Assembly: GCA_030620115.1 (NCBI GenBank)
Contig: JAUXFG010000027.1
Location: forward strand, 1-34,959
DNA: 34,959 bases
From: Candidatus Fermentibacterota bacterium
GTDB lineage: Bacteria > JAFGKV01
Direction of reading: 5' to 3'
Numbering within the stretch: position 1 is the first letter of the stretch; the number at the start of each line of letters is the position of its first letter. The notes below the pieces were generated by a model. That model was not told the origin of the DNA. It made no database searches and worked only from the letters and a program-made list of their open reading frames with translations. Position numbers and translations under genes: made by a program. Below, piece by piece: positions 3,448-34,888 of the stretch.

Positions 3448-4467
3448 TTACTTCGTGTCCGTAGAAAGCCTGAATCGGACGATACGGTTATTCCCGGTGT
3501 CGGAAACAAAGATGGCGCCATCAAACTCCGCGATGCCATGGGGATTCATGAACTCCTTCTCTCCGGTCCCCTCATCGCCAAAGGATTCGTATTCCTTGCC
3601 CGTGCTTGCGAACTTGAACACACGATCTTCCCCGCTGTCCACCACGAACAAGAAACCGTCACCGTCAATGGCGATATCCTCGGGTGAGGAGAATTTCCCA
3701 AGAGTGAACAGATCTCCACCGCTGGTGGGATCGAGCTTGGGCTTCCATCCATACTGATCCGTGGTGATGAGCTGGACCTTGTAGTAGTTCTCGCCCCGCT
3801 GGCTATAGGCGAAGTCCACTGATCCATCACGGATCGCGGTGATGCCGGCAGGATCTGCCGCCGCGAAGAGACCGGTGCCGTCCGGTGTCAGGGGCAGCGG
3901 CCCCTTGAGCGTCCCGTCCTCCTTGAAGTGCAAGATCTGATTGTCGTTTCGGGAATCCCCACTGCACGTTACCATGTAGTAGATCCCTTCATCATAGGTC
4001 TTGAACGCTTCCACCCCATTGAACCGCCAGCCGGGCCGGTCCACGGCATGATACAGCGTCTCGATCCGTGCATGAGCGATGTCGTGGGCAGCCTCGAACA
4101 GATCGATTCGGAAAAGGTAGTTCCGGCCGCTGACGATGAGGAGCCTTAGCATGGCGTCCTCGGCCAATGCGAGGGGGGAATCAATGTATGCCGATTGACC
4201 GAGCAGGTTCCCCGCCATATCCAGCATGGTGACCCGATTGTTGCCTGTATCGGCTATGTAGACCAGTGTCTCCCTTCCGATGAGGATGTCATGGGGGAGA
4301 AGGAAATCGTAACCTGTTTCCGCGCCCCACACGGGACGGAGCTGGATGTAGGTGGTGTCGTCAACCGCGGTTTGGCCATTGTCGTCGTCGCCCTGGTCCG
4401 GAGGAGTAAACTTGGTCCCGCAGGCTGCCAACAAGAGAATCAGGAGAAGAATGGTGTATCGTCTCAT
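3448..4467 (-). CDS. NHL-repeat (beta-propeller) lipoprotein
   Basis: The protein has 339 residues. MRRYTILLLILLLAACG is a classic lipoprotein signal with Cys16 in the LAAC lipobox. Two clear NHL-type blades are visible, LVYIADTGNNRVTMLD near residue 70 and GFLFVVDSGEDRVFKF near 275, and a third ends the protein (IFVSDTGNNRIVRF), consistent with a six-bladed propeller anchored in an outer or inner membrane leaflet. No catalytic motif is seen; the likely role is ligand or protein binding. Its ATG overlaps the barrel-gene stop (ATGA), implying translational coupling to the PorV-like protein. Confidence 0.85.
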   Translation of the reverse strand: MRRYTILLLILLLAACGTKFTPPDQGDDDNGQTAVDDTTYIQLRPVWGAETGYDFLLPHDILIGRETLVYIADTGNNRVTMLDMAGNLLGQSAYIDSPLALAEDAMLRLLIVSGRNYLFRIDLFEAAHDIAHARIETLYHAVDRPGWRFNGVEAFKTYDEGIYYMVTCSGDSRNDNQILHFKEDGTLKGPLPLTPDGTGLFAAADPAGITAIRDGSVDFAYSQRGENYYKVQLITTDQYGWKPKLDPTSGGDLFTLGKFSSPEDIAIDGDGFLFVVDSGEDRVFKFASTGKEYESFGDEGTGEKEFMNPHGIAEFDGAIFVSDTGNNRIVRFRLSTDTK

Positions 4468-5471
4468 CGGAATTCGAGCTCCATTGAGATCCGGTGGGCT
4501 GAACCGAGATAGCCCATGGATGAATACGCGTAGTCAATATGCGCTCCCCCGCCGGGAACGGGAAGCAGAACTCCCCCGCCCAAGGCGTACGATTCAGCAT
4601 CGGAGTTCAGCCTCATCCCTCCCCTTAGAAAAAACCGCTCACTCCAGAGATACTCCACGCCAACACCAAGGTTTTCCGCATTATCATTGGGATGGTTGAG
4701 CTGAAGCGACCCCGTCACTCGTTGCCCGGGCCGGTCCAGGAACTCCGTGGCGAGCCCGAGCCTGAACTCCGTGGGAGGGCTGAATGCCTGGAAATCATCC
4801 AATGTACTTCCGTCATCCAGCTCATAGCTCCCACTCGGCGCTGAATCACCACCGAAATTTGCCAATACGACCGCGAATCTGCTGGATCCCCATCCGGTTC
4901 TGTAAAACGTACCGAGATCAAAAGTTACCGCTCTGATCTGCACAAGATCAAGGGTTTCCTCGATGAGCCGGACCGTGAGGCCAAAGGAGAATCGATCGGT
5001 CATGGCCCGCGCAAACGTCACCGCGGCGGCAAGATCTCCGTAGCGCCACATCTCTCCTGTGCCGTCGGGCTGCATCTCCGTGGTGACCTCTGTTTCGGGG
5101 CAGGTGAGCTGCGTCACGGACACACCGAAAAAGTTCACTCCCATGGGGTAAACCGCCCCGGCAAAACGATGGGAGAGCTCCACAGGCCAATCGGTATACG
5201 AACCATAGACCAGGGGTGAGGCACTCTGCGTGATGCCCGCGGGATTCCAATGGAGCGCGGAAGCGTCATCCGCCACGGCGGCATACGCTCCCCCCAGTGC
5301 CACGGCCCGCGCCCCCACGCCCACCTTCAGGAATTGGAGACCGCTGATACCGACCCGTTGCCCGCCCAATACGGGAATCAGGTCAGCCCCCGCGAAACCG
5401 GGAAAACCACACAGCACCACACAGAAGAGGACGATTGCACAAAACTTGGAGTGAGTCTCAGAAAACAACAT
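4464..5471 (-). CDS. PorV/PorQ-like outer-membrane beta-barrel (UPF0164-type)
   Basis: The protein has 335 residues: a signal peptide (hydrophobic residues ~11-28, ending near FAGA) and then the family hallmark FLKVGVGARAVALGGAYAAVADDASALHWNPAG, which resembles the N-terminal part of PorV/FadL-type barrels. Alternating hydrophobic strands follow, and the C-terminus ends in ...HRISMELEFR, a beta-barrel end with an aromatic residue. PorV helps type IX secretion deliver C-terminal-domain proteins to the surface; several such proteins are encoded upstream in this operon, which supports a related role here by inference. The start codon lies 14 nt inside the TonB receptor gene. Confidence 0.8.
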   Translation of the reverse strand: MLFSETHSKFCAIVLFCVVLCGFPGFAGADLIPVLGGQRVGISGLQFLKVGVGARAVALGGAYAAVADDASALHWNPAGITQSASPLVYGSYTDWPVELSHRFAGAVYPMGVNFFGVSVTQLTCPETEVTTEMQPDGTGEMWRYGDLAAAVTFARAMTDRFSFGLTVRLIEETLDLVQIRAVTFDLGTFYRTGWGSSRFAVVLANFGGDSAPSGSYELDDGSTLDDFQAFSPPTEFRLGLATEFLDRPGQRVTGSLQLNHPNDNAENLGVGVEYLWSERFFLRGGMRLNSDAESYALGGGVLLPVPGGGAHIDYAYSSMGYLGSAHRISMELEFR

Positions 5472-20250: not shown

Positions 20251-22998
20251 CTACCGCAAATGCAGAATGGGATTTGTCGTCATGCCTGAGGAGGAGTTCA
20301 CCGTAAGGAGATAGACCCCGGATGGGACCGTCCTCAGAGAAATCGTGTTCCTGGTGATCCCGGGATTGGGATGAAGCACCGTGGCGATCCGGCTTCGTCC
20401 GGCGAGATCCACGAGATAGATGCTGACTGGTTCCGCGCGCGGAACCGAGAGCGTCAGGAATAGCTCATCCCGTGCGGGGATGGGGCTGCATGTGAGCAGC
20501 CGGATCAGCGGCTTCCCCACTTCTTTTTGTGGCGGAGACATCGCCGTATCACGGACATAGTATCCGGTTCTCCTCAGATCTGCTCGGTGGGTGGCCCAGA
20601 TGGCGCGCGCATCAACGCATTTGAGATCCAGCGCTTCGACGCCCTGATCGGTGCCGATAATGATCTCAAGATCACCATCACCATCCATATCGGCCAGAGA
20701 AGGTGGCGATAGACATCCACCATCCAGGTAGACAGGCGAGGGATTGAGGAGTGAACCGTTCCCGTCAAGAAAGCTGACGATACCACGGTCGGTTGAGCAG
20801 ATCAGTTCGGGAAGGCCGTCATTGTCGATATCGGCTGCCGTCAATCCCACGAATGAGGCGTTCTCTAGGGATCTCGGCCATCCATAGGCGAGCTCCCCAT
20901 CCGGTTTCACGACATAGAGCCTTCCGGCGCTGGTGGCGAATATGGCCTCGAGCTTCCGGTCTCCATCAATGTCGAGCACAAGCAACGCCGAACGAATCAA
21001 TGCCGTGGAGCTGAAAAGCTCCGTCGCACTTCCAGAAAGCTCGATGGCATAGACGCTTCGGCCGGCGGCACAGATGATCTCGGTATCCCCGTCATCATCG
21101 TAGTCAGCCACTACCGGGCCTGTCCAGATCTCGCCCCCTACATCAACGGGCCAGCCGGGCATCTCCTGCGCCTCTGGGTCGAGAAGATGGAGCATGCCGC
21201 TTCTTGAACCTGCGCAGATAAGGAGCGGGTCATGATCTTGCACCAGCGCCGCTCCGGAAATGATCGCCTGCCCGAAATCCACTGGCCAACCGGTCAGATC
21301 ATTCCCTTGACTGTCCAAAGCCCAAAGGTTGCCCTGAATATCTCCGGCAACCATATCAGGAAAACCATTGCCTGTCAGGTCAGCCAAAAGAACCGTGGCC
21401 GCAATGCTGTTGCCTATGTCTTCAATCAGAAGCGGTGTACCGTCGACATGGAACGCCGCGAAGAGATCATTCCTAGTGCCCACCACTATCTCGGGTGACC
21501 CATCGCCGTCGAGATCTGCCACCGCGGGGGCCGACCTGACCACATCCCCCAATGAAACCGGCCAGCCGGGCAACGGACTGCTTTTTCCGTCAAGCACCCA
21601 GAGGTCCCCATATCTGTCCGCCACCGCCACCACCATGGAATCACCAAGCGAGAAGCATGCAGGGCCTGCATAGAAGTCAGTGGGCTGGTCGAATGGCCAT
21701 CCGGGCATGGAAATCGAAGGATTGATAGCTACCACGCTTGTCTTCTCATACGGGTAAGAACCACCCACATTGGATTCCATCGTCACCTGCAATGGGATCT
21801 CATCAACAGGACCGATATCGGCGATCTGGATGATAAAATCGCCCATGCACCACGCGCTGTCCCCTGGAAGCACGGTTACGTCAAAGGAATCCGTTCCCTG
21901 GATCACCGAAACACGATCTTGGTACTCAGGCGCCACCGAGAGCGTCAGATCAATCCCCTGAGCGCTGATCCAATAGATGCTATTTTCTATCAGGAAGCCC
22001 AGCGATGCCCGCTCCCCTGGGTTCACGACGCCATCTCCATCGCCTTCCACTTCGGTCATGATCACGTCGGCAACACAGAGATTGGGAAACGTGGGTGTGT
22101 TGACCGTGAGCCAGCATGCCGCGCCTTCCATGCCGCACTGGCCATACTTCATCCGGAAGTAGCCGTTCTCGCCCCATTCCGGTCCCCACGAGTTCTTCAG
22201 GATCCAGTACGACTGCTCGTCGTTCCATCCTACCAGCGCCACGGCGTGGCCGGCCTCCACTTCACCCCAGAGATGCTCGTAGATCCCACCGGTATAGGCC
22301 ATGAAGTCTTCATACACCGTGAATGCGACATACACAGGGCCATCCAAGATGCGGGTCTTGATAGCGGCTTGATTCGACGCGATCCACCCCCAATTCTGAA
22401 TGGTCAGTAGTTCCATGTCAGAAAACGAGCAATGATTGTCACAGGGGATGGTGTCATCGGCATGGTAAGGCATACATGCCTCGGTGGGAGTGCCGGTGTG
22501 CCGCAGGAAGTCACAAGTGCCGCTCAGCGCATAGCCATTGCATGTGCCGGGGCTGCATGAGAGAAGATACTGTTCCGAAAGATCCAGCGTGGGGAATGGT
22601 ATGAATCCATCGATGGCAAACCGCGCTTCCATGCAGGCTACGGCCCCGAATGCCCAGCAGCTCCCACATTGCTCCTGGTTCGTGATGGGAGTGATGTAGG
22701 ATTCACCATCCACATCACGCCAGTCGAACTGATCGCGGAGCATCGCCGCTCTTTCCGTTGCCTCCGGCATGGAAGCACGAGCCGCCTCATCGAGCTCCTT
22801 GTTCCATCCCAAGAGCGCGAGCCGCTCCTCCCGAGGAAGCTCCCAAATCTCGTTGGATCCAGCGGTCCAGTTCGCCCCTTTCTCTGCGATGACGCGCTGC
22901 ACTTCCCGCAGCTGGTCATCACGCGAGAGCGAGGCATGGCTGGGCATGGATACGAGCAGCAGTACCATGATCAGTGTCATCAGTTTCAAGAGTTTCAC
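20251..22998 (-). CDS. Secreted C1A (papain-like) cysteine protease with FG-GAP/VCBS propeller and sorting domain
   Basis: About 915 residues from the GTG at 22998, which follows AAGGAG with 7-nt spacing and begins a signal peptide (KLLKLMTLIMVLLLVSMPSHA); an upstream ATG at 23043 lacks both. A short propeptide-like region (25-90) precedes the catalytic domain. Gln108, Cys114 (CGSCWAFG), His251 (GHAVALVGW) and Asn269 (KNSWGPEWGENGY) form a complete papain active site. Residues ~440-840 carry FG-GAP-like blades (VADLDGDGSPEIVVGT, VADYDDDGDTEIICA, LADMDGDGDLEIIIGT). The C-terminus (CSPIPARDELFLTLSVP, SIYLVDLAGRSR, VPSGVYLLTV) is a type IX-style sorting domain. It should be exported to the surface and cleave extracellular protein. 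It stands 236 bp after the SurA-like gene and may have its own promoter. Confidence 0.92.
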   Translation of the reverse strand: MKLLKLMTLIMVLLLVSMPSHASLSRDDQLREVQRVIAEKGANWTAGSNEIWELPREERLALLGWNKELDEAARASMPEATERAAMLRDQFDWRDVDGESYITPITNQEQCGSCWAFGAVACMEARFAIDGFIPFPTLDLSEQYLLSCSPGTCNGYALSGTCDFLRHTGTPTEACMPYHADDTIPCDNHCSFSDMELLTIQNWGWIASNQAAIKTRILDGPVYVAFTVYEDFMAYTGGIYEHLWGEVEAGHAVALVGWNDEQSYWILKNSWGPEWGENGYFRMKYGQCGMEGAACWLTVNTPTFPNLCVADVIMTEVEGDGDGVVNPGERASLGFLIENSIYWISAQGIDLTLSVAPEYQDRVSVIQGTDSFDVTVLPGDSAWCMGDFIIQIADIGPVDEIPLQVTMESNVGGSYPYEKTSVVAINPSISMPGWPFDQPTDFYAGPACFSLGDSMVVAVADRYGDLWVLDGKSSPLPGWPVSLGDVVRSAPAVADLDGDGSPEIVVGTRNDLFAAFHVDGTPLLIEDIGNSIAATVLLADLTGNGFPDMVAGDIQGNLWALDSQGNDLTGWPVDFGQAIISGAALVQDHDPLLICAGSRSGMLHLLDPEAQEMPGWPVDVGGEIWTGPVVADYDDDGDTEIICAAGRSVYAIELSGSATELFSSTALIRSALLVLDIDGDRKLEAIFATSAGRLYVVKPDGELAYGWPRSLENASFVGLTAADIDNDGLPELICSTDRGIVSFLDGNGSLLNPSPVYLDGGCLSPPSLADMDGDGDLEIIIGTDQGVEALDLKCVDARAIWATHRADLRRTGYYVRDTAMSPPQKEVGKPLIRLLTCSPIPARDELFLTLSVPRAEPVSIYLVDLAGRSRIATVLHPNPGITRNTISLRTVPSGVYLLTVNSSSGMTTNPILHLR

Positions 22999-23085
22999 AA
23001 AAATTCTCCTTCCGGCTTCATGTGAGGATGCCCCGTAGGTCATTGAAGATAACAGCAGAATGGTGGTAGCTCCTTACATTTCGAT

Positions 23086-29086: not shown

Positions 29087-29119
29087 GGGTTGCTGCAACG
29101 TCGGGAGCACGGACAGTTG

Positions 29120-29980
29120 ATGACCTGTTTCTTCGTTTCTGATCTTCATGGACATGCCGATCGCTACCAGAAGCTCTTCCAGGCTATTGGCGATGAACGA
29201 CCCGATGCGGTTTTTCTGGGAGGAGATATCTTGCCTTCGGGCCTCTTGCCATCATCATCCATTTCCCCTGATCATGAAGACTTTGTCAACGATTTCCTCG
29301 CCGCTGGGCTGGACAGGCTACGGTCTACGCTCGGTTCCGCCTACCCGCGGATCTTCCTCATCCTCGGCAATGACGATCCCCGCTTCGAGGAATCGGTAAT
29401 ACTCGACGTGGCAGCCCGAGGAATCTGGGAATACGCTCACAACCGAAGAATTCTCTTAGGCGACTATGAGATATATGGATACAGTTTCGTGCCGCCCACG
29501 CCATTCTTGCTGAAGGACTGGGAGCGCTACGATGTCTCTCGCTACGTGGATCCGGGTTCGGTCTCCCCGGAAGAAGGCTTCCGCTCAGTCCCTGTCTCGG
29601 AATACGAGATCCAGTTCTCGACCATAGAGAAGGACCTTGCACAACTGACTGCCAAGCGAGATCTCTCGCGAGCGCTCTTTCTCTTTCATGGCCCTCCCTA
29701 TAAAAGCAAACTTGACCGCGCCGCCCTCGATGGCCGGAAAATTGACCATGTTCCCCTAGATGTGCACGTCGGAAGCATTGCCGTGGCGCGCTTCATCCAG
29801 TCCCGACAGCCATATGTCACCATGCACGGCCACATACACGAATCTGCTCGACTCACCGGCTCCTGGCACGACAAGATCGGCGAAACCTACCTCTTCTCCG
29901 CGGCTCATGACGGTCCTGAGCTGGCCCTTGTCCGCTTCTCGCCCGAAAATCCGGCCTCGGCAGAGAGAGAGCTCCTCTGA
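29120..29980 (+). CDS. Calcineurin-like metallophosphoesterase
   Basis: About 286 residues from the ATG at 29120; an earlier TTG at 29090 is less likely. Metal ligands are clear: D8 and H10 (FVSDLHGH), D36 (FLGGDIL), N84 (ILGNDD), H190 (LFLFHGPP) and the GHIH box (237-240). No signal peptide, so it is cytosolic. It would hydrolyse a phosphomono- or phosphodiester whose identity cannot be read from sequence. Its last 25 codons overlap tail-to-tail with the 3' end of the ATP-grasp/nucleotidyltransferase gene on the other strand. The Asp in place of His in the canonical GNH(E/D) motif is shared by some relatives. Confidence 0.87.
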   Translation: MTCFFVSDLHGHADRYQKLFQAIGDERPDAVFLGGDILPSGLLPSSSISPDHEDFVNDFLAAGLDRLRSTLGSAYPRIFLILGNDDPRFEESVILDVAARGIWEYAHNRRILLGDYEIYGYSFVPPTPFLLKDWERYDVSRYVDPGSVSPEEGFRSVPVSEYEIQFSTIEKDLAQLTAKRDLSRALFLFHGPPYKSKLDRAALDGRKIDHVPLDVHVGSIAVARFIQSRQPYVTMHGHIHESARLTGSWHDKIGETYLFSAAHDGPELALVRFSPENPASAERELL

Positions 29981-32900
29981 CCCGCCTTCATGGGCAATTC
30001 CCTGGCCGCATCCGTCACCGCACCGATCTTCATGGCAAAGCTGCTCCTGGCCTCGATGTCCGTGTCCGTGAGGAGATGCACATCAAGCAACCCGTCGGTC
30101 TTGTAGCCGGTTTTGAGGTAGTTTAGCTCGGCAAGGCATTCACTCCAACCCTCGAGCCAAACCTCAAGCTCCTTCTTCTGCTCATCCGTACCCTGGAAAT
30201 GGATGAGCAGGTCGATATCGCTCGCCGGACCGGCGGTCCCGTTCTTGGTGCTGCCGAATATGTAGAACGCCTTGACACCGAAACGTTCCGGGGCTATCTG
30301 GGCCGCTATTCTCTTCGCCATCCTCAGCCGCCAGCTCCAATAGTCTTCACCCGGTCGGCCGGCCGCCACTTCGGCATCCTCACGCACGAATTCAACCACG
30401 GAGGATGACTCCGTAATGAGCCCGAGTGCCTCGTCTTGGGCGGCGTTCATCAGAACTCGCAGAATCCTTCCATCCGTGGTTTTGGGAATGTCGATGACTC
30501 GAATGGTCTCGGAGAGGGAACCATACTCAGGGAGGATCTTCGGCAGGATATTCGGCGAGCTCAGCAGGAATTCCTCGTTGAACTTCACGCCCTGTTCGTC
30601 GGGGTAGAGCGGCAGATATCGAATGGACGCCTCCACGAGATCCTGGAAGAAATGCGTGCCGAAGGAGACCTCAGGGACATACTTGCCCTTCTTGCGCGCC
30701 ACCTCAATCAGCATCGCCGAGTTGTTGATGTCTGAATAGGTGACTCTCACGCCCAATTTGATGTCGCCTCTGCTCCCCCACCGCCCTGGTCCCATGAGTA
30801 TAAATTGGCGCTTAGGCAGAATCCTATTGAGCTTTCCTATGGCCTGACCCACTGCCACAAGCTCGCTGAACTCCGAAAGCGTATCATACCGCTGCGGGTC
30901 CACGTATACGATGTGTGTGATGTCCGGAACCCAGCCGTTTGACACAAAGCGGTTTGCGGAAAACAGGACCGATTCCGCGGGCACATTCTTCGGGATCTCC
31001 GCGGCCGCGTCATCGCTCGAGGAGGCCTGTGGTCGACATTGAAGAAGGTACAGGTCTTCACCATCCGACGCGAACTCTATGTCTACGGGAGTCCCAAATC
31101 CATGCTCCAGAGCGCGGAGAATGGCGGCCATCCGGTCAACGAACGACGTCTTGGAAATCAGTCCATCAAAAGTCACCACCACATCTTCCTGGCTGAGATC
31201 CGTAAGTAGACCAAGCGGCGGGCGCAATAGGCCATCGCGGTAAATCGAGATGACCTTGCTGATGCTCGGGTAGTCCTGATCACACTCGGAGATCAATTCA
31301 TCGATCTCTTTGGTCTCGAAGCAGCTTTTCTCCAGGTTGATGACATCGATCTTCTTGGGTGAATACCGTACGGTCTCATCGATCGTGACATTGACTCGCA
31401 ACTTCGGCCGACCAGGCGCCACGAGGATCGGGTAGTCATCACTCAACCTGTCTACCGCTCGCGTGCCCAGTCCCGGGACGATACGAAGAAGCCCATCTTC
31501 GCGTTTGATTCGGGATGACCACCGGAATTCGTTTCTGCTGAACGCAACCCCGGCGAAACAAGGCATGAAGTACTTCCCCACACGCTTCCCCACGACTTCC
31601 TGTATCATGATGCCCATCTCTTCGTGAAAATCGAGCAGGCCGCGTTCACAGCGATACTCTATCGGATCCGGGCTGAAGGTCGACGCATATACTTCCGCAA
31701 TCGCATCCATCAACGCCTCGAGACGCTTACTCTTGTCTCCTTGATTGGCCAGAAAAAGACTCTTGTACTTGCCCGCGAATGCCGTCCCTAATCGGTCTTC
31801 CAGAAGGCTGGAGCTGCGCACCACCAGTGGAACTTCCCTAAAGTCGTCCAGAGCCACGGAAAGCCCCTTCACGAGCTCAGGCGGAAAGGTGGAGTTTTTG
31901 AAGACCTGCACGATGTGAGGATACTCCCGCCGTACCTCGTCGATTTCTTTGTACTTCTGTTCGTAGACCTCTCCAAGGTTATTGTACCGCAAGAAGGCGA
32001 GGATACCGTCAGAAGCCACGTACCAGGTCTTTGGCGTCTTTACATTCTCGAGTAGATCAATCTCTGAGCTTTTTTTCCTAAGCATAGCGCTGGCAACAAA
32101 AATCCCCGCGCTTTTCCCGCCAAGCTTGCCATGACTTCCGGACGAGAATATGATCCGCTCCAGCAAGTCAAAGAAATCCTCGATCTCCACGTGTTTCTTG
32201 GCAACATTGATGAACTCGAGCTGATCGCTGAAGAAGCGCCTGACCAGTGCAACCCGAAGGCCATTCATGGTCGGTTTTGGAAGCTTCATTCCCTCTGGCA
32301 TGAGATGTTGATAGCGCCGCACCGCATCGGACACATCATCAAGCGGAGCGTATCCATTGACGAGTACGTCGACGAGGATGCTTGATCTGTCCTCGAGGAT
32401 CCATTTGTGAATACGCGTCAGGATTTCAGCGTCGCTGAGATGCACTGCGGCGACGCGAAAGGTCTCATCCGAGAGACTCAAGGGATTCTCAAGGGGCGCC
32501 TTTTTCTCCGGCTGATTCACCTGCCCGAGAAGATCCGCGCTCTCCCGCTCCTGACCAAAACGCTGCAGTAACGACTTCGCCTCCCCGATCCCTCTCCAGC
32601 CGAGATAATTTATCATCTTCCGCGAGATACGGATCAAGAGGTCTTCATCGGTCTTCCGCAGAAGATCCAGGGCCACCCGCCACTCGCTGGGCTTGCCCTG
32701 CTTGCCGTTCTGCCTGGCCACTCGCATATCCTCGAACATGAGCTTGAGGCGCTGATGAAGGATGAAATGCCCTAATCGATCGGCAATGGTGTCGATGAGC
32801 CTGATTTCCTCATCGAGAAAAGGCCCGCTGTCGGCGGGCGGCATCTCCTCCTTGTACCCAAGACATATCCTACCCACGGTGGCATCCTGCACCTTAATCA

Positions 32901-33162
32901 GGGCACAGTGTTCCCACGGCGTCTCGACATAGTCAGCGAGCTGATACGTCTCGGATTCATGATCAATCTTGACCTGGCACTGCTCCGGATACTGCCAAGC
33001 AGGCGGTATCGCCTCCATGATTCCCATGAAGATCTCTTCCAGTGGCGTCTCGCTCTCGCTCAGCAGCTCCTCGATTCGGTAGAGGCACCTGAGTTCCTTT
33101 GCTCGCTCTTGAAGGGCAGAGATCAGGCTGCCCACTGCCTTGGTGGTCTTACTCTCGGTCAT
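29905..33162 (-). CDS. GAF / PEP-synthase-type ATP-grasp / nucleotidyltransferase fusion protein
   Basis: The protein has 1085 residues. Residues ~20-140 are a GAF-like domain (ELRCLYRIEELL, IPPAWQYPEQ, ETPWE..ALIKV, GPFLDEEIRLIDTIADRL) of a type found in some sensor kinases. A helical linker follows, then a PPDK/PEP-synthase N-terminal ATP-grasp: GKLGGKSAGI (~344), PLVVRSSSLLEDRLGTAFAGKY (~449), YLLQCRPQ (~707). The swivelling phosphohistidine domain and PEP-binding barrel are absent. Instead comes a domain with FILMGPGRWGS (~791) and SFGTHFFQDL (~834), shared with the adjacent gene. The end (~965-1045) is a nucleotidyltransferase with FGSTKNGTAGPASDIDLLI. The ATG lies 14 nt inside the previous gene. 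No characterised function is known to me. Confidence 0.88.
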   Translation of the reverse strand: MTESKTTKAVGSLISALQERAKELRCLYRIEELLSESETPLEEIFMGIMEAIPPAWQYPEQCQVKIDHESETYQLADYVETPWEHCALIKVQDATVGRICLGYKEEMPPADSGPFLDEEIRLIDTIADRLGHFILHQRLKLMFEDMRVARQNGKQGKPSEWRVALDLLRKTDEDLLIRISRKMINYLGWRGIGEAKSLLQRFGQERESADLLGQVNQPEKKAPLENPLSLSDETFRVAAVHLSDAEILTRIHKWILEDRSSILVDVLVNGYAPLDDVSDAVRRYQHLMPEGMKLPKPTMNGLRVALVRRFFSDQLEFINVAKKHVEIEDFFDLLERIIFSSGSHGKLGGKSAGIFVASAMLRKKSSEIDLLENVKTPKTWYVASDGILAFLRYNNLGEVYEQKYKEIDEVRREYPHIVQVFKNSTFPPELVKGLSVALDDFREVPLVVRSSSLLEDRLGTAFAGKYKSLFLANQGDKSKRLEALMDAIAEVYASTFSPDPIEYRCERGLLDFHEEMGIMIQEVVGKRVGKYFMPCFAGVAFSRNEFRWSSRIKREDGLLRIVPGLGTRAVDRLSDDYPILVAPGRPKLRVNVTIDETVRYSPKKIDVINLEKSCFETKEIDELISECDQDYPSISKVISIYRDGLLRPPLGLLTDLSQEDVVVTFDGLISKTSFVDRMAAILRALEHGFGTPVDIEFASDGEDLYLLQCRPQASSSDDAAAEIPKNVPAESVLFSANRFVSNGWVPDITHIVYVDPQRYDTLSEFSELVAVGQAIGKLNRILPKRQFILMGPGRWGSRGDIKLGVRVTYSDINNSAMLIEVARKKGKYVPEVSFGTHFFQDLVEASIRYLPLYPDEQGVKFNEEFLLSSPNILPKILPEYGSLSETIRVIDIPKTTDGRILRVLMNAAQDEALGLITESSSVVEFVREDAEVAAGRPGEDYWSWRLRMAKRIAAQIAPERFGVKAFYIFGSTKNGTAGPASDIDLLIHFQGTDEQKKELEVWLEGWSECLAELNYLKTGYKTDGLLDVHLLTDTDIEARSSFAMKIGAVTDAARELPMKAGQRSSLSAEAGFSGEKRTRASSGPS

Positions 33163-34888
33163 GGCGAAGAATCACTCCTCGACCGCTCCTGCCGTCGACT
33201 TGGACCGACAGCGGCGAATCGGTCCTGACGTGCCGAACGAATCGTTCCTTGGCAATTTCCTGGTTTCTCTCTATCCAGTCCCAATCTATCGCGTACTTGT
33301 GTGCATGATGTACTGAGAAGTAGCAGACTCGGAAGCTTGTCAGGTTGTGGAAAAAATGCGAACCTTGACTCAGATCCGGCGCCATCTTCGGAAGGGTAGC
33401 CTCCACAATGACCCTTGCACCGGATATCTGGCTCCACGCCACAGGAATCCCGAGCCACGGATCGGAACTCCCCCAGCGACCGAATCCCATGAGCACATAA
33501 GACCTTCCTTGCGCAACCAAGTTACTATTGATCTTCTCCAGTTCCAATGCCATCTCTTGGGTCGACCGGGGATCAAAGGTGTCCGGGCGGACATACACGA
33601 TGTCGTGGAGACTATCGGTGACGCCGTTCCCCAGGGCCTTCGTCGTGGCCACAACCACATTCCCGCCCTCAAGGAGATCCAATGGTATGTCTACCTGCTC
33701 GTCCGAGACCACCATGGGCCTGACCTGGAGAAACCCCAGCCGCGCGGGCACCCCCTTCTTCCGGTCCAGAGTCATGGCGAATTCGATCTCCACTTCCGCG
33801 CCCAACTCCTCTTCGCTTTGGGCAAGCACTTCCTTGACCACCTCATTGAGTGCGATGTCTCCATATACGAGAATCGAGGCGAAGTTGATGACACGAGGCC
33901 CGCGAGCCCCAATCCCTGGACAAAGCCGGTCTGATTGCGGATCATAGGTGGACGCAGTGAATCTCAGTGTGTTGTCATACTCCGCTTCAGAGAAACCTGC
34001 CTTGACCAAATATTCGGTTTCCCGGATAGGATCGTAGGCAGGAGGCTTCCCCATGTTCACGGCCCAGAATTCGGTCTGGGTATTCTTCAAGAGGTCGCCA
34101 ACGTCATTGTAGGGAGGCGGCGCCTGTGGAGCAGCCGGTGAATAGCTCCACGTCACACCGCCATCAACAATGGTCTTGCCCAGGCCAAGTGCAAGGTTCA
34201 CCACGCCATCTTCCGGCGACGAACCACCGAAGGCATAGAAATCGTGGGATCGCGCCACACCCGATAGTGTGGGGTAGAATCGATCGCCGATTCGCTCACC
34301 CACCACCTCCTGGATGATCACCGCCATCTTCTCGTCCGTACTCTCCCGGTTCACGGAGTTGATGTACCGCTTCGCATCCTGGAAGAATGTGGAAGCATAG
34401 ACAAACTTGACGGCCTCCACCAGTCTCTGAAACCGCGTATCGGGCTTGGGCTGGTTGTTCGGGATCATCTTCGTGGCATAAACCCCGGCGAAAGGACGAT
34501 ACATGGCGTCCTCCAGGAGACTTGAGGAGCGTATCGCCAGAGGGACATGAACCTGATCCGCAAGAGACCGAAGATCTCCCACGAGTCTTGGTGGAAGATC
34601 CGCCTGCTGGAAGGCGTGGGCGATCCTGTCGTCTCGCAGGTCTGATGCCACAACCTCGTAAAGATCGTTTGACCCCATGAACTCATCGAAAAAATCCGTG
34701 GCGATCACCGTGCTTCGAGGAATGCTCACACTTATGCCGGGAAATCTCCCCTCGCCACATCGGGAATGAATCCTCTCCGCCATGAGGAAAAGCCCATGAG
34801 CCTTCCCGCCCAAGGAACCTGATCCGATCCGGGTTATTTCATTCTCAGATCCGAAGAACCGGCGATCAAAATGATCGAGCTCAGCCAT
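33149..34888 (-). CDS. PEP-synthase-type ATP-grasp protein lacking the phosphohistidine domain
   Basis: The protein has 579 residues. The ATG at 34888 follows GGAGAGAG. ATP-grasp landmarks are IGSGSLGGKAHGLFLMAE (21-38), VPLAIRSSSLLEDAMYRPFAGVY (~117-139), VIIQEVVGERIGDRFYP and GFLQVRPM (~385). As in the next gene, a C-terminal domain then carries HDIVYVRPDTFD, VLMGFGRWGSSDPWLG (~466) and LSQGSHFFHNL (~508) where PEP synthase would have its phosphohistidine domain. It lacks the GAF and nucleotidyltransferase parts. The 14-nt overlap with the partner gene suggests coupled translation and a heteromeric complex; this is inference. Homologues are usually labelled PEP/pyruvate-binding-domain protein. 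Confidence 0.88.
   Translation of the reverse strand: MAELDHFDRRFFGSENEITRIGSGSLGGKAHGLFLMAERIHSRCGEGRFPGISVSIPRSTVIATDFFDEFMGSNDLYEVVASDLRDDRIAHAFQQADLPPRLVGDLRSLADQVHVPLAIRSSSLLEDAMYRPFAGVYATKMIPNNQPKPDTRFQRLVEAVKFVYASTFFQDAKRYINSVNRESTDEKMAVIIQEVVGERIGDRFYPTLSGVARSHDFYAFGGSSPEDGVVNLALGLGKTIVDGGVTWSYSPAAPQAPPPYNDVGDLLKNTQTEFWAVNMGKPPAYDPIRETEYLVKAGFSEAEYDNTLRFTASTYDPQSDRLCPGIGARGPRVINFASILVYGDIALNEVVKEVLAQSEEELGAEVEIEFAMTLDRKKGVPARLGFLQVRPMVVSDEQVDIPLDLLEGGNVVVATTKALGNGVTDSLHDIVYVRPDTFDPRSTQEMALELEKINSNLVAQGRSYVLMGFGRWGSSDPWLGIPVAWSQISGARVIVEATLPKMAPDLSQGSHFFHNLTSFRVCYFSVHHAHKYAIDWDWIERNQEIAKERFVRHVRTDSPLSVQVDGRSGRGVILRHDRE

Follow-up and report, generated by a model that had tools for sequence, protein, structure and literature searches.

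A conserved pair of PEP-synthase-like ATP-grasp proteins encoded near glutamate dehydrogenase genes, with a candidate phosphohistidine in their C-terminal domain

The phosphohistidine domain of PEP synthase (PEPS) and PPDK follows the order VILV strand, helix, IVT strand, GGxTSH motif, helix, CVAG strand and ISIDGxTGxV hairpin. RPH and HpeHI demonstrate that the PEP-synthase ATP-grasp can be reused for other substrates (PMC4844700, PMC12167813). Here we analyse two adjacent genes, P0002 and P0001, in a stretch of 34,959 nt from a Candidatus Fermentibacterota bacterium (the window). Both encode the ATP-grasp half of such an enzyme, followed by a C-terminal domain (C-domain) with an invariant histidine.

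The gene pair, its ATP-grasp half and additional domains

Both ORFs lie where the initial annotation had placed them, including the overlap of 14 nt (Table 1). The pair was present in all three genomes of the host phylum examined, and a small overlap is retained in both sister genomes as well as in other, distant genomes. P0001 and P0002 are 28% identical over 536 columns, which span the ATP-grasp and the C-domain, and have the motifs LQ(C/V)RP, IVYV, GRWGS and G(S/T)HFF in common. This bears out the earlier view that they share a C-terminal domain marked by GRWGS and G(S/T)HFF.

Table 1. Positions of the features of the gene pair and its convergent neighbour within the window
Feature	Position	Strand	Remarks
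P0002	33149..34888	-	579 aa: ATP-grasp (PPDK_N) and C-domain; orthologues in G001/G002
P0002 ATP-grasp domain	33695..34816	-	aa 25-398; K29, R120, E126, D127, E369, Q388 family-invariant
P0002 C-domain	33161..33676	-	aa ~405-576; swivel-like strand/helix order in the AF2 model
GRWGS motif, P0002	33467..33481	-	aa 470-474
His511 of GSHFF, P0002	33356..33358	-	candidate phosphohistidine; invariant in 114/114 complete members
P0001/P0002 gene overlap	33149..33162	-	14 nt; 8 nt in sister genomes
P0001	29905..33162	-	1085 aa: GAF-like sensor, helical region, ATP-grasp, C-domain and nucleotidyltransferase
P0001 GAF-like sensor domain	32728..33150	-	aa ~5-145; akin to the N-terminal region of the HisKA_3 histidine kinase at L153
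P0001 ATP-grasp domain	30982..32127	-	aa 346-727
P0001 C-domain	30412..30975	-	aa ~730-917; GRWGS and GTHFF (His837)
P0001 MNT-type nucleotidyltransferase domain	29995..30342	-	aa ~941-1056; GS...SDIDLL; PF01909 7.3e-10; Foldseek matches 2rff and MntA structures; unseen in the initial annotation
Metallophosphoesterase, calcineurin-like	29090..29980	+	convergent with P0001; likely start 29120; conserved beside P0001-type genes

PPDK_N matched both proteins far above the cut-off (3.5e-60 for P0001, 1.5e-35 for P0002). As annotated, each carries the PPDK/PEP-synthase nucleotide-binding half, which ends after LQ(C/V)RP. The domain search found no PEP/pyruvate barrel in either protein and no match to PEP-utilizers PF00391. 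With the barrel absent, the annotation was right that neither is a PEP synthase. Since the same genome also encodes a true PPDK, the pair is not the PEP-forming dikinase of the host. Whole-protein NCBIfam scores of the pair were far under the cut-offs for RPH, PigC and RedH. The ATP-grasp residues listed in Table 1 (P0002 numbering) are invariant in all complete members. As judged from sequence, these catalytic residues and the C-domain site described below argue for P0001 and P0002 being active ATP-using enzymes.

P0001 has additional domains at both ends. Its GAF-like N-terminus and helical region (together aa 5-340) had also escaped the initial annotation. Foldseek related the N-terminus to several GAF structures, including NifA-type ones, with a probability of 1.00, although the E-values were weak and the predicted structure of P0001 is itself weak (pLDDT 63.6). 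A region homologous to this domain heads the histidine kinase at L153, in another genome. At the C-terminus, the NTP_transf_2 GS motif and DxD active site are present, and GS and SDIDLL are conserved among full-length P0001-type proteins. The neighbours of P0001 are P0002 and the metallophosphoesterase, with no HEPN toxin gene beside it, and the MntA model scored 26 on P0001 versus a cut-off of 60. A defence system was considered and rejected, as the PADLOC match was confined to the nucleotidyltransferase domain. Phage or mobile origin of the pair was likewise rejected: a search of viral contigs with P0002 returned no relative.

A third paralogue in the same genome, P0003, has two receiver-like domains ahead of the same core (REC-type). 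The first is without the phospho-acceptor Asp; the second has Asp253 and Lys306, which are found in 70/70 REC-type relatives. The presence of sensor (GAF) and receiver domains suggests a signalling role for the family, and the initial proposal of a sensor role or of another substrate is supported as likely. Between receiver and ATP-grasp, aa 340-415 of P0003 and its homologues give a weak match to DUF5752 (PF19027). Literature searches on DUF5752, on PPDK_N with a response regulator, or on GDH with PEP synthase yielded nothing on function. A member of 1403 aa in Carboxylicivirga (L167:894-5102; G027:C61) combines several tandem GAF-like sensor domains with a receiver-like domain, with DUF5752 and with PPDK_N; it adjoins a second REC-type member and a glutamate dehydrogenase (GDH) gene.

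No Rfam match was obtained in the window. The contig end (34933-34959) is GC-rich (CCTCCCC...GGGGAGG) and resembles a terminator-like inverted repeat that separates GDH from P0002 in the sister genomes. Type IX secretion in the candidate phylum is hinted at by two proteins: a papain-like protease (20251-23043) that has FG-GAP repeats and, weakly, a Por secretion tail, and a weakly PorV-like protein (4464-5471).

The C-domain and its invariant histidine

The C-domain matches no described family, which supports the initial annotation. P0002 was modelled with AF2 from 84 input sequences (pLDDT 87.6, pTM 0.84). Downstream of the ATP-grasp, the model shows a strand (411-415), a strand (422-433), a helix (440-459), a strand (464-469) and the GRWGS loop, then a helix (485-488), a strand (491-497), the SQGSH loop with His511, a helix (513-518) and a strand (522-526); the last strand pair carries VDGxxGxGVI. 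In this prediction the order of strands and helices resembles that of the PEPS/PPDK phosphohistidine swivel, with the His before a helix; the motifs of the two domains were matched by eye. The C-domain also follows the ATP-grasp directly, as the swivel does in PEPS/PPDK. G470, R471, D476, G480, E496, G509, H511 and F512 are invariant in all 114 complete members, and the invariant C-domain residues sit in or beside the loops surrounding His511.

The best Foldseek matches of the P0002 model were RPH, HpeI, PEPS and PPDK. Alignments to PEPS/PPDK covered 485-701 columns versus 376-390 for isolated ATP-grasp chains, Foldseek giving these lengths without the aligned residues. Sequence profiles were silent: hhalign of the C-domain versus PEP-utilizers (truncated, full-domain, PEPS-only and mixed sets) showed no similarity, hmmsearch of the C-domain against the PDB gave no support for a phosphohistidine domain, hmmscan of 74 family members found no PF00391 match, and a home-made profile alignment of C-domain and phosphohistidine domains with decoys was null. 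We consider the C-domain to be probably a phosphohistidine-type swivel domain, which the sequence profiles neither confirm nor exclude. The initial annotation had considered the mobile histidine missing, a statement that is not safe in view of the invariant His in GSHFF and the predicted swivel-like order. It had set its reading against an HMM or structural match of the C-domain to the PEP-utilizing His domain: the profiles are null, but the AF2 strand/helix order and the invariant His agree with such a match, which is plausible rather than proven.

Distribution and linkage to glutamate dehydrogenase genes

A scan of genome contigs gave at least 547 related stretches. The best 80 were used as loci; being the top relatives of a single query, they are not a random sample. 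They belong to Ignavibacteria, Bacteroidetes, Acidobacteria, Krumholzibacteriota, Calditrichaeota, Planctomycetota, delta-proteobacteria and others. The C-domain occurred in 77 of the 386 diverse genomes that were sampled (about one fifth), and the P0002-P0001 pair recurs in many of the genomes with relatives. A single copy of the REC-type protein occurs in 70 of the 81 genomes of one Bacteroides-related family, in agreement with the earlier mention of similar proteins in Bacteroidetes.

GDH is a main entry of ammonium into metabolism. The neighbourhood survey that had been suggested as a check revealed GDH, which the initial annotation had not noticed, as the outstanding neighbour: ORF clustering of the best 80 of at least 547 loci placed it beside the family in 53 loci, versus 7 for the next family, and no pathway genes recurred nearby. 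Clustering assigned 78 loci to the family, 60 of them with flanks of 1.7 kb or more on either side. In 48 of these 60, also drawn from the best 80 of at least 547, the distance between the family gene and a GDH gene is no more than 1 kb. Of the 53 nearest GDHs in the loci, 49 are on the same strand. Pfam and NCBIfam both confirmed the identity of the neighbour as GDH. As a control, GDH was found near canonical PPDK/PEPS/EI genes in 0/60 loci (1.5 kb flanks).

The order GDH-P0002-P0001 is seen in nine loci from distant genomes (L158, L165, L166, L278, L279, L280, L283, L284, L285), eight of which have a convergent metallophosphoesterase like that in the window. Divergent relatives of about 860 aa, 33-41% identical to the P0001 core, have GDH nearby in 4/5 loci examined. 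In Bacteroides-related genomes GDH lies within 1.5 kb in 15/30 loci, in several orientations; the link thus does not stem from a single inherited operon. REC-type genes mostly adjoin an NADP-type GDH, and P0001/P0002-type genes mostly a GDH closest to the archaeal-type model. The clusters at L279 and L280 each unite four family members with a metallophosphoesterase and GDH of two kinds, the NADP-type GDH being flanked by two REC-type genes. A divergent P0001-like subgroup (L288-L293; 588-874 aa) gives no match to the P0001 nucleotidyltransferase and has GDH nearby in 4/6 loci.

Upstream of P0002 the window extends for 71 nt and then stops. The host GDH gene that comes closest to the pair-linked type, 81% identical to the pair-adjacent GDH of G001, has its stop 84 nt from the end of contig C174; the two contigs have no sequence overlap. 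Both contig ends fit a broken GDH-P0002 junction, which is not proof. Adjacency of GDH and the pair in the host is suggested by its occurrence in two sister genomes.

Possible mechanisms and relation to known systems

The domain content, the invariant catalytic-type residues, the wide distribution and the GDH linkage are all observed. For the widespread family, we regard it as an evenly balanced proposition that its members are ATP-dependent, sensor- or receiver-linked phosphotransferases that act on or regulate GDH. The pair would then represent PEP-synthase-superfamily ATP-using enzymes that have turned into dedicated GDH partners. In this model, the most economical one, the ATP-grasp would use ATP to phosphorylate His511/His837, with the C-domain acting like a swivel. 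Without a PEP barrel, the phosphate would then be handed over in trans, GDH or some other protein partner being the most likely recipient. GDH activity could track signals through the GAF domain of P0001, or through the receiver domain in paralogues, while the metallophosphoesterase and the nucleotidyltransferase domain may reverse the modification or add to it. GDH of E. coli is reportedly phosphorylated on His. Swivel identity, phosphotransfer, GDH as target and the direction of control are what we infer. Adjacency is not proof of a target, as glutamate, 2-oxoglutarate or ammonium chemistry would yield the same linkage.

A metabolite shared with GDH is at the centre of a possible, though rather unlikely, alternative, modelled on rifampin phosphotransferase, HpeHI or PigC: a small-molecule dikinase or ligase would use ATP to phosphorylate or ligate a substrate or product of GDH (glutamate, 2-oxoglutarate), with the C-domain as substrate site. 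The nearest solved structures are indeed small-molecule dikinases, and the invariant cluster of G470, R471, D476, E496 and H511 could form a substrate pocket. However, no third substrate domain is recognisable within the 579 aa, the GAF and receiver fusions suggest regulation, and GDH belongs to central metabolism, with no recurring pathway genes nearby. The same fusions, together with the GDH linkage, would also suit a non-catalytic sensor, in which the ATP-grasp would sense ATP/AMP and binding of the C-domain would inhibit or activate GDH allosterically. We consider this unlikely, as ATP-grasp and C-domain have kept all catalytic-type residues, beyond what binding needs.

The nucleotidyltransferase of P0001 might AMPylate or UMPylate GDH or P0002, with the PEP-synthase-like part being regulatory, comparable to nitrogen control by GlnE/GlnD. 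Conservation of GS and SDIDLL and the MNT-type structural matches are in line with this, but P0002, the REC-type members and the shorter P0001-like members still located near GDH all lack this domain; it is thus not part of the shared core, and we find this very unlikely. A two-component-like scheme appears quite unlikely to us: ATP-grasp and the His of the C-domain would replace a histidine kinase, P0001 would be the sensor kinase, the receiver Asp of the paralogue would accept the phosphate, GDH would be controlled directly as the output, and the metallophosphoesterase would undo this.

If the family does control GDH, it would account for how this enzyme is regulated in many bacteria, gut commensals included (77/386 genomes; 70/81 Bacteroides-related), and would carry the PEP-synthase fold beyond metabolism into regulation at the protein level. 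Linkage to GDH recasts a "PEP-synthase-like protein of unknown function" as a question that can be addressed at the bench.

No description of the GDH linkage, the GAF/nucleotidyltransferase form or the conserved operon was found in the literature searched, which left most subscription journals outside. By its title, a 1996 paper of Baggio and Morrison is said to describe gene(s) located downstream of gdhA in B. thetaiotaomicron and affecting GDH activity in trans; like these, members of the present family are found close to gdhA in many Bacteroides-related genomes. A REC-PPDK fusion is already recorded in a census, and is probably the same architecture as P0003; the passage on it mentions no function, GDH link, GAF/nucleotidyltransferase form or P0001-P0002 pair. 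The second receiver of P0003 resembles response regulators in its phospho-acceptor Asp and conserved Lys. The C-terminus of P0001 shares the GS...DxD nucleotidyltransferase fold with MntA-type enzymes, but is fused to a PEP-synthase-like enzyme and has no HEPN partner gene in sight. With PEP synthase/PPDK, the pair has in common the PPDK_N ATP-grasp with conserved K, R, E and Q and a His-bearing domain directly after it; it differs in lacking the PEP/pyruvate barrel, in a His domain that PF00391 misses, and in GRWGS/GSHFF versus GGxTSH. RPH and the HpeHI/CreHI/PpsAB dikinases are the best structural matches of the ATP-grasp, and represent a dikinase fold redeployed for another substrate and a two-protein organisation (PMC4844700, PMC12167813). 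A RIF-binding-like substrate domain was not found in P0002, whose 579 aa leave no residues for it. Unlike in those systems, each protein of the pair has its own ATP-grasp and C-domain, and both stand in the context of GDH and sensor domains.
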